Positions 6,090-14,616 of a DNA stretch of 64,000 nucleotides are shown here, one piece after another; within the stretch, counting starts at the first letter, position 1, and each line of letters begins with the position of its first letter. The DNA lies in the NCBI GenBank assembly GCA_030614915.1, contig JAUXAG010000005.1, positions 62,001 through 126,000 on the forward strand. The letters are read 5' to 3'. The stretch is from Actinomycetes bacterium. GTDB lineage: Bacteria; Planctomycetota; Phycisphaerae; JAACET01. A program made the position numbers and the translations under genes. The notes below the pieces were generated by a model. It saw nothing but the letters and a program-made list of their open reading frames with translations, was not told the DNA's origin and searched no databases.

Positions 6090-6878
6090 ATGTACGTGAT
6101 CGGCGAACTAATCAACGGAATGTTTTCCAACGTCAAGAAGGCTATCCAGGAGAAGGACGGGCAGGTAATCCAGGATTTGGCCAAGGCCCAGGCCGATGCC
6201 GGGGCTTACGCCTTGGACGTGAACGTGGGACCGGCTAGTCGCGACGCGGTCGGGGCCATGCTCTGGTTGGTGGAGAACATCCGCAAGGTCAGCGATATTC
6301 CCGTGGCTATCGATAATGCCAAGTGGGAAGTTATGCAAGAGATAATCCCCCAGGTGCCGGGCGAAAAGATTATTAATTCCTCCAAGGCCGATGAGGATCT
6401 TCTGGACAAGTACGTGCCTTTGGCGGTGGCAAACAATGCTTCGCTGATCGGACTGACTCTCGACCAGGCCGGCGTGCCCAACGACGTGGACAAACGGGTG
6501 GAACTGGCTGCGGCTATCCTGACCAAGTGTGCCGAGCACGGCCTGGACGTAGGCAAGCTTTTTATTGATCCGATTATTCTGCCGGTCAACGTAGCCCCGC
6601 AGCAGGCGGATAATGTTTTGCGATCTTTGGAGCAGATGAAGATGCTTAGTGATCCGGCACCGCACTTTTTGCTGGGGCTGTCGAACCTCTCGCAGAACTG
6701 CGCCAACCGCAGCCTGATCAACCGCGTTTATCTGGCCATGGCCAGGGGTTCCGGTCTGGACGCCGCGATTCTGGATCCGCTGGATAGCGAGCTAATGGAT
6801 GTAGCCATTACTACCGATTTGCTTTGCGGGGCGACCATTTATTGTGATTCGTTCCTTGAAGCTGCCCGGTCCAAGTAA
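6090..6878 (+). CDS. acsE: 5-methyltetrahydrofolate:corrinoid/iron-sulfur protein methyltransferase (AcsE)
   Basis: The 262 residues match the usual AcsE length. It is a pterin-binding TIM barrel. The DVNVG and DNAKW segments near residues 45-75 contact the pterin. The GLSNLSQ segment near residue 198 holds the Asn that hydrogen-bonds N5 of methyl-THF in the Moorella enzyme. The enzyme moves the methyl group from methyl-THF to Co(I) of the CFeSP, joining the folate branch to acetyl-CoA synthesis. A strong AAGGAGGA site precedes the ATG. MetH-type pterin domains are related, but the length and the acs context make AcsE secure. Confidence 0.96.
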   Translation: MYVIGELINGMFSNVKKAIQEKDGQVIQDLAKAQADAGAYALDVNVGPASRDAVGAMLWLVENIRKVSDIPVAIDNAKWEVMQEIIPQVPGEKIINSSKADEDLLDKYVPLAVANNASLIGLTLDQAGVPNDVDKRVELAAAILTKCAEHGLDVGKLFIDPIILPVNVAPQQADNVLRSLEQMKMLSDPAPHFLLGLSNLSQNCANRSLINRVYLAMARGSGLDAAILDPLDSELMDVAITTDLLCGATIYCDSFLEAARSK

Positions 6879-11596: not shown

Positions 11597-12322
11597 TTAG
11601 AAGCGCTTTTCGATCCTGATAGCCAGGGGACAGAGAAAATCCACGTCGGTGCGCTCGACGAGGATGTTATCGTGCTCAGCCTGGTTGAGCGGTATCAGTA
11701 GGAGCATGTCCTCGACCTGCTCGACGCGCTTGAAGGTTACGCCGTGGCCTTTGGCACAGTCGCTGGAAAAGCGCACAAAGCAGTCCTGGCCGCTCTCGGC
11801 CGGCACCGAGGGAAAGAAGATGAGGATATCGCCGCGGCGATAGGCTGGGGCCATGCTTGAACCGAGCACCTTTATGCCAAAGGCATCGGGGTCGTCGCAG
11901 TCGAGGATAGGAAAATATTCATCGGCATGCCCGACCGGATAGTCCAGGTCGGTCCAGTCTTCCGGCGGTCCGGCTGGGGCCCAGTTGATGACGGGCACAG
12001 CAGCGACGCTGGCTAAATGCTCTGGGACGGTCCCAGCGGGCTGGGGATACAGTCCGTGCTGACGGGCCCGGTCGACCACGGCCAGGACGTCGGGGTGACG
12101 CTGGGCGGCAGCCAGGAACGTGAGCTGAGCTATCTCCTGCTGGCTGGCTCGGCAAGCCCGGCCGATCTGGGTGTTGGTCTCGGGCGTGGCGGGGGGGTCC
12201 TGGCCGCTGGCGATGCGCGAAAGGTAACCGCTGGTAATGCCGGCAGTTCTGGCGACAGAGCGCTGGCTTTGCCCAGATCGCTTGATAAGGCTCTGGAGCA
12301 ACTTGCAGTAGTCGCTAGCCAT
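11597..12322 (-). CDS. CI/LexA-like repressor: XRE helix-turn-helix plus S24 self-cleaving domain
   Basis: This 241-residue protein has an N-terminal XRE-type HTH (about residues 15-45, SQRSVARTAGITSGYLSRI). After a linker comes a C-terminal S24 peptidase-like domain. The catalytic dyad is visible: Ser156 in GSSM and Lys198 in TFKRVE. An Ala117-Gly118 bond lies 38 residues before the Ser, close to the LexA arrangement (Ala84-Gly85, Ser119, Lys156), so RecA-stimulated self-cleavage is plausible. It diverges from the HTH-darT-darG genes. An operator-like half-site lies inside its own promoter and a dyad lies at the opposite promoter, so it probably represses both. The start codon is only 6 bases from a -10 box, implying a leaderless mRNA. 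Confidence 0.9.
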   Translation of the reverse strand: MASDYCKLLQSLIKRSGQSQRSVARTAGITSGYLSRIASGQDPPATPETNTQIGRACRASQQEIAQLTFLAAAQRHPDVLAVVDRARQHGLYPQPAGTVPEHLASVAAVPVINWAPAGPPEDWTDLDYPVGHADEYFPILDCDDPDAFGIKVLGSSMAPAYRRGDILIFFPSVPAESGQDCFVRFSSDCAKGHGVTFKRVEQVEDMLLLIPLNQAEHDNILVERTDVDFLCPLAIRIEKRF

Positions 12323-12328
12323 AACTCC

Positions 12329-12357
12329 ATTATAACCGATTACTAAGCATGCAACAA
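12329..12357 (-). promoter_or_regulatory. repressor promoter with an operator half-site in its spacer
   Basis: On the minus strand TTGTTG (12357-12352) and TATAAT (12334-12329) are 17 bases apart. The spacer contains GCTTAGTA, the same half-site as in the dyad at 12425. Transcription should begin about at the ATG (12322), giving little or no leader. Confidence 0.55.
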
Positions 12358-12395
12358 TAATTCTCCAAAATTTTGCGATTTCTTTGGATTCCTAC

Positions 12396-12424
12396 TTGTC
12401 GAGAGGTCTGCTTTCGTGTATCTT
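12396..12424 (+). promoter_or_regulatory. probable promoter of the HTH-darT-darG operon
   Basis: TTGTCG (12396-12401) and TATCTT (12419-12424) are 17 bases apart, an acceptable sigma-70-type match. The operator-like dyad starts on the next base, covering the expected start site. Confidence 0.5.
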
Positions 12425-12442
12425 GCTTAGTGATTAGTAAGC
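12425..12442. promoter_or_regulatory. operator-like dyad GCTTAGTGATTAGTAAGC
   Basis: GCTTA and TAAGC form symmetric arms, with further near-symmetry inside (GCTTAGT / AGTAAGC). It abuts the -10 of the darTG-side promoter. A related stretch, GATTACTAAGC (12338-12348), lies in the divergent repressor promoter. The longer 17-base words starting GATTA share 14 of 17 positions. It is the likely binding site of the CI-like repressor. Confidence 0.55.
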
Positions 12443-12492
12443 ACACAAGGCTGTTGGTGGTCCGTTCGGGTCTTTCCTGGCAGGAGATGAGC

Positions 12493-12678
12493 ATGAATAG
12501 CTTCATTGAAGAGTACCTTACGGCTGAAAAGGCAGCAGCGATTCTGGACGTAACCCCGCAGATGATTCGTAAACTCTGTCATGGAGGACACTTACCTTTT
12601 TATAAGGTCGGCCGATGTATCCGTATCTCCCGAGCGGATTTCGATAAGTATCTAGCCCGCCAGCGGGTTGCCAGTTGA
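12493..12678 (+). CDS. small MerR/excisionase-like helix-turn-helix protein
   Basis: This 61-residue DNA-binding protein of the excisionase/HTH_17 type starts YLTAEKAAAILDV, the family's helix-turn-helix, followed by a wing GGHLPFYKVGRCIRIS and the terminal DFDKYL helix. ATG 12493 has AGGAG 6 bases upstream; earlier in-frame codons back to 12373 lie in the promoter region. It is the first gene downstream of the dyad operator and lies before darT, so it may be an extra regulator of the toxin-antitoxin operon or a leftover from a mobile element. The same frame stays open for 85 codons beyond its TGA. Confidence 0.75.
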   Translation: MNSFIEEYLTAEKAAAILDVTPQMIRKLCHGGHLPFYKVGRCIRISRADFDKYLARQRVAS

Positions 12679-12854
12679 TCAGACAACATTGGTGCAAATT
12701 GGACGGACTTCATTAAGGACTTATCCAAGCGTGCCAAAGAGATTATCAACCATTTAGGTTTTGGGGAGCACATCGTCAAGCTCAGCGAATACCTCACAGC
12801 CTTGATTTTGCGGGCGATAACGGGCAAGATAGATTTGCGCAAGGAGGTTCTCTG
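12679..12854 (+). other. gap between HTH gene and darT, open in the HTH frame
   Basis: No start codon with a ribosome-binding site is seen here. Reading on past the HTH stop codon gives a protein-like segment including FIKDLSKRAKEIINHL, open to 12936 where it overlaps darT in another frame. It could be the remains of a longer fused protein interrupted by TGA, or coincidence. The last bases hold the darT ribosome-binding site. Confidence 0.4.
12841..12847 (+). promoter_or_regulatory. strong ribosome-binding site deciding the darT GTG start
   Basis: AAGGAGG lies 7 bases before GTG 12855 and fixes the darT start, which would otherwise be ambiguous because no ATG is nearby in frame. Confidence 0.75.
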
Positions 12855-13499
12855 GTGCCTGTACCGAGCCCTACGCCAATCTACCGCTTTATCCATGTGG
12901 ACAACCTCCACGTATGTCTCCGGCGCACTGGTTTGAATGCTCCCAATTACACACCCGATGATGGGCTGACATACAAGCCAATCCACAACGTTGATATTCA
13001 ACAACATCGCCGAGTTACCCAAATTCCATGCGGCCCCGGCGGCGTTATTCACGATTATGTGTCCTTCTACTTCGGCTATCAGTCTCCGATGATGTTTCAG
13101 CTAAAAACGGGCCGAGTGGACGGCTATAATGAAGGGCAGGAACCCTTGATTTACCTGCTCTCGACCGTACAGGCCGTGCAGCAGGGCGGCGCTCGCTTTG
13201 TGTTCTCAGATGGACACGGTATTGCCCGTTGGACAGACTGGTTTGACGATCTCAAGGAATTGAACAAAGTAGACTGGGACATGGTGTACGAACGTTATTG
13301 GGCAGACAACACCGACGATATGGACCGCCAACGCAGAAAGCAAGCTGAGTTTCTGGTCTACAAATTCTGCCAGTGGTCCTTGATAGAGAGAATTGCTGTA
13401 ATTAATGATAGTATGAAGAGCAGGGTTGAAGGTATCATGAGCAACTTCTCGTCGGACATGCGTCGAGATGTACTCATTAAGCCGCAGTGGTATTACTGA
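12855..13499 (+). CDS. darT: DarT-type DNA ADP-ribosyltransferase toxin
   Basis: This 214-residue protein of the DarT (DUF4433) family transfers ADP-ribose from NAD to thymidine in single-stranded DNA, blocking replication. The N-terminal PIYRFIHVDNL matches the family's NAD-binding start. R52/R53 and the central substrate-binding region follow. E165 in KQAEFLV matches the catalytic Glu (E160 in Thermus, E170 in E. coli). The GTG start is fixed by AAGGAGG. The antitoxin gene darG follows after 13 bases. DarTG systems defend against phage. Here the pair sits under a CI-like repressor, an arrangement I do not know to be described. All recognisable catalytic residues are present, so it is probably active. 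Confidence 0.93.
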   Translation: MPVPSPTPIYRFIHVDNLHVCLRRTGLNAPNYTPDDGLTYKPIHNVDIQQHRRVTQIPCGPGGVIHDYVSFYFGYQSPMMFQLKTGRVDGYNEGQEPLIYLLSTVQAVQQGGARFVFSDGHGIARWTDWFDDLKELNKVDWDMVYERYWADNTDDMDRQRRKQAEFLVYKFCQWSLIERIAVINDSMKSRVEGIMSNFSSDMRRDVLIKPQWYY

Positions 13500-13512
13500 A
13501 AGGGAGATCTCC

Positions 13513-14565
13513 ATGATAGAGATCACTCGGGGCAACATTCTTAGGGCTGATGCGGAGGCCCTGGTCAACACGGTGAACTGTGTTGGCTACATGGGCAAAG
13601 GCATTGCACTTCAGTTCAAGAAAGCCTTTCCTGCGAACTTCAAGGCCTATGAACGTGCTTGCCGTGCGGAAAAGGTCGTGCTGGGAAAGATGTTCGTGTT
13701 TGCAACGAATTCTTTCGTGAACCCAAAATACATCATCAATTTTCCCACCAAGCGACATTGGCGAGGGAAGTCGCGGCTTGCGGATATTGAATCCGGATTG
13801 AGAACGTTAATCGAGGAGGTCAAGAAATTGGACATTTCGTCCGTTGCAATTCCTCCTCTGGGGTGCGGTCTCGGCGGACTTAATTGGGGTGTCGTACGTT
13901 CGATGATTGAAAAGGCGTTAGCCGAATTGCCCAGCGTGCAGGTACTGCTCTTTGAACCTGCCGGAGCGCCGGATGCCAGAGCCATGCCGGTGCGGACGCA
14001 GCAGCCCAAAATGACTGTAGCCAGAGCACTGCTCGTCAAGCTCATGCAGCAATACGCAGAAACGGCCTATCGTCTCACGTTACTCGAGATTCAAAAGTTG
14101 GCTTATTTTCTTCAGGAAGCTGGCGAACCCCTGAGGTTGAAATATGAACGACATATCTATGGGCCTTATGCACATAACTTGAACAAGGTCCTGGAAGTAA
14201 TGGAAGGCCATTTCACGCAAGGCTATGGCGATACACAAAAACCGGACGTCGAAATCGAACTGCTTTCCGGCACAACACAAAAAGCCGATAAGTTTTTGGC
14301 GACACATCAAGAGTATCATGTACTTCTGCAGAGAGTGGAGGAATTAATTGAGGGGTTTGAAACGCCTTACGGAATGGAATTGCTCTCCTCGGTCCATTGG
14401 GTGGCACGGCACGACTCCACAGCTGCCCGAAACGCAGACGAAGCTGTCCGGAAAATTCACGAGTGGACTGATCGCAAACAGCGAATGTTCCGTTCGGAGC
14501 ATATTTGTGTCGCTTGGGACCGCTTGACAGAAAAGGGATGGTTGCCGCAAACGCCGAAAAGCTAA
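13513..14565 (+). CDS. darG: DarG antitoxin: macro-domain DNA ADP-ribosylglycohydrolase with DarT-binding C-terminal domain
   Basis: In this 350-residue protein, residues 1-155 form a macro domain with ITRGNIL, NTVNCVGYMGKGIALQF and PPLGCGLGGL, the loops that hold ADP-ribose. It removes ADP-ribose from thymidine. Residues ~170-350 form the DarG C-terminal domain (KLAYFLQEAGEPL, YGPYAHNL), which binds and blocks DarT. ATG 13513 has AGGGAGA just upstream; the frame is open to 13468 but that would overlap darT. Length and domain order match known two-domain DarG proteins. Confidence 0.94.
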   Translation: MIEITRGNILRADAEALVNTVNCVGYMGKGIALQFKKAFPANFKAYERACRAEKVVLGKMFVFATNSFVNPKYIINFPTKRHWRGKSRLADIESGLRTLIEEVKKLDISSVAIPPLGCGLGGLNWGVVRSMIEKALAELPSVQVLLFEPAGAPDARAMPVRTQQPKMTVARALLVKLMQQYAETAYRLTLLEIQKLAYFLQEAGEPLRLKYERHIYGPYAHNLNKVLEVMEGHFTQGYGDTQKPDVEIELLSGTTQKADKFLATHQEYHVLLQRVEELIEGFETPYGMELLSSVHWVARHDSTAARNADEAVRKIHEWTDRKQRMFRSEHICVAWDRLTEKGWLPQTPKS

Positions 14566-14616
14566 TGTTGAAGATAACAGATAGAACAAGTTTTTGAAAC
14601 TGCTAAGGAGCAGGCT

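Follow-up and report, generated by a model that had tools for sequence, protein, structure and literature searches.

Conserved operator sites at a predicted S24 repressor switch, with darTG as an apparent late addition

Introduction

Which protein acts at the two matching, operator-like sites that lie between a pair of divergent genes, and is control of the nearby toxin-antitoxin module darTG what these sites are for? The question concerns a 170-bp intergenic region within the 64,000-nucleotide stretch of DNA analysed here (the window), flanked on one side by a gene for an S24 (LexA/CI-like) repressor and on the other by a gene for a small HTH_17 protein, behind which darT and darG follow. The reading we favour, at a probability of about 0.7, is that both sites are operators of the adjacent S24 repressor and form part of a CI-type divergent switch that would be released upon DNA damage, with darTG transcribed by read-through. 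The window's genome (G000) was compared with two congeners, G001 (L022, with the repressor at 88%) and G002 (L023, with the repressor at 82%), and the comparison is therefore one of three genomes, two of which (G000 and G001) are fairly close.

Results and Discussion

The repressor gene (11597–12322, minus strand) encodes a 241-aa protein in which Pfam recognises an XRE-type HTH (PF13560 HTH_31, 6e-7, 30.1 bits against a cutoff of 27, residues 9–67) and a peptidase S24 domain (PF00717 Peptidase_S24, 1.4e-11, 44.5 bits). Residues A117-G118, S156 and K198 are invariant in a five-row alignment, and the A-G/Ser/Lys set is nearly invariant in about 20 relatives from the class, the exceptions being T-G in L028 and P for S in L029; the cleavage site and the Ser/Lys pair look intact. 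Because AlphaFold gave too poor a model of the repressor (mean pLDDT 58), the S24 active site was judged by sequence only; a sequence search for the repressor returned no PDB chain. The possibility that the protein is the genome's own LexA was rejected, as it carries HTH_31 and has no PF01726 match, and LexA is encoded by a separate gene (G000:C32). A prophage origin found no support: no relative was found on a viral contig, and the matches comprised distant CI-type phage sequences and two weak plasmid ones. In L039 and L042, from further members of the class, the opposite-strand neighbour of a related S24 repressor is another one, by eye a short sigma-like or HTH-like gene.

On the plus strand, as the first gene behind what we term operator 1, stands the HTH_17 gene (12493–12678), the product of which is a 61-aa excisionase-type DNA-binding protein (PF12728, 9.7e-16; TIGR01764, 1.4e-12) that has counterparts with 95% and 82% identity in the two congeners and shows no Phage_AlpA match in Pfam even at E 10. 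Its promoter, which probably also serves darTG, reads TTGTCG-17-TATCTT on the plus strand (12396–12424; −35 at 12396–12401, −10 at 12419–12424), and that of the repressor reads TTGTTG-17-TATAAT on the minus strand (12329–12357; −35 at 12357–12352, −10 at 12334–12329). Both are weak consensus matches, neither of which is reported by a 9/12 promoter scan, and the position, hexamer cores and 17-bp spacing of both are kept in the intergenic alignment of the three genomes. At the HTH_17 promoter, TTGT, TAT..T and the spacing are conserved and most spacer bases vary; at the repressor promoter, TTGTT and TATAAT are found in all three aligned genomes. The repressor ATG lies 6 nt past the −10 element, and since this TATAAT-N6-ATG arrangement (12320–12334 in the window) recurs in all three genomes, the repressor message is probably leaderless.

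Operator 1 (GCTTAGTGATTAGTAAGC, 12425–12442, plus strand) is an 18-bp dyad with 7 of 9 pairs matched. As the preliminary description had it, the dyad begins directly after the TATCTT hexamer; we find that it can be extended by one pair to a 20-bp dyad (TGCTTAGTGATTAGTAAGCA, 12424–12443, 8 of 10 pairs). It covers the expected transcription start of the predicted HTH_17 promoter and contains a 7-bp direct repeat (TTACTAA TCACTAA). Operator 2 (GATTACTAAGCA on the plus strand, 12338–12349), a single or half-site, falls inside the repressor promoter's spacer, the minus strand of which contains GCTTAGTAATC, and this is where a related site had been placed before. The reported identity of 14 out of 17 bases over GATTA-TAAGCA--CAA was likewise recovered (12338–12354 against 12432–12448), but the trailing CAA does not belong to the shared core, which measures about 11–12 bp: at operator 1 the third genome does not conserve CAA, and at the repressor promoter these bases fall within the −35 element.

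Could the similarity of the two sites be due to chance, with their conservation reflecting core promoter constraint and close kinship? Among dinucleotide shuffles of this 170-bp region, 5% contain a 20-bp dyad with 8 or more of 10 pairs and 1% contain a 17-mer repeat with 14 or more of 17 identities; on that measure taken by itself, the dyad is marginal and the repeated 17-mer modest. The pattern GMTTASTAAKC occurs in the whole window at the two operator sites only, against 0.09 occurrences expected, a figure that is indicative only because the two sites served as the template for the pattern. It is conservation that decides in favour of the sites. In the three-genome intergenic alignment, 17 of the 20 columns of operator 1 are invariant, as compared with 36 of the 111 columns that belong to none of the annotated elements (Fisher P 1.3e-5), no other 20-column window of the region is as conserved, and the direct repeat is retained at 5–7 of its 7 positions. 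An explanation by chance can draw on shuffle P values (0.05 and 0.01) that are not extreme for a short intergenic region, and on the closeness of G000 and G001. Nearly all of operator 1, however, is located past the −10 element, on the downstream side where promoter constraint is weak, and the site is the top-conserved stretch even against G002, in which the intergenic region outside it is merely 45/111 identical, and we hold chance to be highly improbable as an explanation.

Conservation in related genomes had been proposed as a check in the preliminary description, and both sites are indeed present in G001 and G002. Judged from these alignments, the two operator sites are real and conserved, and the regulatory switch belongs to an established type. 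At the position of operator 2, G000 and G001 both carry GCTTAGTAATC and G002 carries GATCACTAAGC, which is one base off its reverse complement. Being kept but flipped in G002, operator 2 can be read as one half of the dyad or as a pseudo-palindrome of 11 bp. The term half-site, as originally applied to the repressor promoter, thus stands as one fitting reading and has to share the data with a pseudo-palindromic 11-mer. The usual size of XRE/CI-type dimer operators, 18–20 bp, favours the half-site of a 20-bp dyad over the pseudo-palindrome.

A motif scan of the three genomes with the operator 1 pattern, allowing up to 3 mismatches, returned this intergenic region in each of them and, elsewhere, one weak 3-mismatch match in G000; there was no match at the lexA and recA loci. 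Operator 1 being nearly unique, the switch looks local and not like a regulon. The same scan bears on the idea that operator 1 is a LexA box, bound by the LexA that the genome itself encodes, which would place HTH_17 and darTG in the main SOS regulon. All three genomes do encode a canonical LexA, and dyads of the TTAG...CTAA form serve as LexA boxes in some bacteria, but with a single weak match beyond the intergenic region and none at the two SOS loci, we regard this as the least probable of the readings considered here. A candidate third operator (6643–6654) falls within a methyltransferase-like open frame (6090–6878) and was taken as a chance occurrence, and further copies of the 12-bp half-site (GATYACTAAGCA) in G000 and G001, all of them within long open frames, were set aside as well.

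The 61-aa HTH_17 protein is another candidate binder of the sites, acting either by itself or as a competitor of the S24 repressor, in a Cro-like or Xis-like role. The protein matches excisionase-family DNA-binding models and is as conserved as the repressor, and the 7-bp direct repeat in operator 1 would suit cooperative binding of a small winged-helix protein. On the other hand, a dyad of 18–20 bp positioned over the start site has the dimensions usual for an XRE/CI-type dimer. HTH_17 and the repressor are both present in all three genomes, and co-occurrence cannot tell them apart. On balance, we consider HTH_17 an unlikely binder of these sites.

With the S24 repressor as the binder, the switch would operate through steps (repressor binding, RecA-dependent cleavage, read-through and feedback by DarT) that we infer as follows. 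Repressor bound to the 20-bp dyad would shut off the HTH_17 promoter by covering the region where transcription starts, and repressor bound to operator 2, between the −35 and −10 elements of its own promoter, would limit its own synthesis (negative autoregulation). Since the repressor sequence carries the cleavage site of S24 proteins together with the catalytic residues, RecA-mediated release after damage would be expected from the family: DNA damage would activate RecA, the repressor would cut itself at A117-G118, and both promoters would be freed. HTH_17 would then be produced and, in the two species carrying darTG, darTG would be co-transcribed by read-through. In E. coli, expression of DarT raises the levels of RecA, a hallmark of the SOS response, and the cell perceives the toxin's activity as DNA damage (PMC7003065). 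A feedback loop is therefore possible, in which damage inflicted by DarT would itself release the repressor.

The gene for the ssDNA thymidine ADP-ribosyltransferase toxin, darT (12855–13499, plus strand; NF048013, 231 bits against a cutoff of 150), is followed in tandem by that for the macro-domain antitoxin, darG (13468–14565 from the upstream-most ATG, plus strand; NF048014, 478 bits against a cutoff of 250), and both score above curated cutoffs. The NF048014 match starts at residue 17 of the darG frame, and the true darG start is probably further in, near 13513. The start of darT lies 176 bp beyond the end of the HTH_17 gene, a gap in which no terminator-like site was found; read-through across it into darT is assumed, a weak, unrecognised promoter within the gap being the alternative.

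The preliminary description, which leaves the HTH_17 gene unmentioned, had presented strong control of darTG as the purpose of the switch, and here our analysis departs from it. In G002 (assembly about 89% complete), the order is repressor, HTH_17, memo, with both operators present and darTG absent from the locus, which argues that the switch is older than darTG. Between G000 and G001, darTG is about 99% identical, with a block at about 12800–14600 that shows 95–100% identity per 100 bp (mostly 98–100%), against 74–95% (mostly 80–95%) in the flanking 100-bp segments. This break in identity, together with the absence from the G002 locus, marks darTG as a late insert, and it appears to have been inserted behind an existing repressor/HTH_17 switch. 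With HTH_17 as the first gene, a G002 locus that lacks darTG and an insert that looks recent, control of darTG would thus be secondary, by read-through.

An open frame before darT (12697–12873, plus strand) is a candidate 3′ remnant of hsdS: a 26-aa segment of it matches, at 54%, the C-terminal end of an HsdS encoded directly upstream of another darT, and the frame has no significant Pfam match. Tentatively, we take this frame to be an hsdS remnant carried in with darTG. In EPEC, DarTG2 is located between hsdS and hsdR (PMC12255303), and the candidate remnant suggests that darTG may have been excised from a type I RM operon. Of the other 23 darT matches in 392 genomes of the phylum, not one has an S24 repressor or HTH_17 within about 1.5 kb. 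We put forward, at somewhat less than even odds, that a mobile DarTG from an RM operon was placed behind a self-cleaving S24 switch, which would tie its expression to damage and possibly set up a positive loop. If this is true, a stand-alone toxin-antitoxin module may come under damage-responsive control when it inserts behind a repressor switch that is already in place. With operators, repressor and a darTG-free sister locus available, this is a small testable system.

In G001, a short PIN-like gene and an XRE-metallopeptidase-like gene (ImmA-type by eye; L022:4715–6311) are placed between an IMP cyclohydrolase-like gene and miaB, where they are not seen in the window. The stretch from the IMP cyclohydrolase-like gene to miaB may be an insertion hotspot.

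Comparison with Known Systems

The operator pair as such is ordinary for CI-type switches, and the less ordinary aspect is a DarTG module seemingly captured by a switch of known type. Like the lambda CI switch, the locus combines an XRE plus S24 repressor with divergent promoters and operators at both, and the repressor message is predicted to be leaderless, as is the lambda cI message from PRM; PrtR of the pyocins and SetR of SXT likewise belong to repressor switches of the lambda-CI type. It differs from lambda in having two visible sites only and in lying in the chromosome, with coaD on one side and memo (or darTG) on the other, and no integrase turned up in the sequence read.

The nearest working analogue appears to be AlpR-AlpA-alpBCDE of Pseudomonas aeruginosa, in which a repressor that cleaves itself upon damage controls a small DNA-binding regulator, AlpA, that acts as an antiterminator at the separate alpB promoter (PMC7969949). 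Judged from the genes alone, gene order and operators fit, with an S24 repressor beside a small HTH gene and harmful genes at the end of the switch. In contrast to AlpA, HTH_17 is not a Phage_AlpA match, darTG seemingly resides on the HTH_17 transcript, and darTG is here a late addition, absent at the G002 locus. On the EPEC island, a type I RM operon has DarTG2 immediately after hsdS, under a dedicated 9-kDa repressor, RptR, whose targets are short repeats in the promoter of its own gene (PMC12255303). In both cases darTG lies with a repressor gene, but the repressor here is another one and the RM genes are gone save for a possible hsdS remnant. Finally, CapH+CapP, CapW/BrxR and CapK+CapS are damage-sensing regulators that adjoin immune operons and sense by a separate protease, by direct ssDNA binding or by a kinase (PMC13373217), whereas the sensing predicted here is self-cleavage of the S24 repressor.
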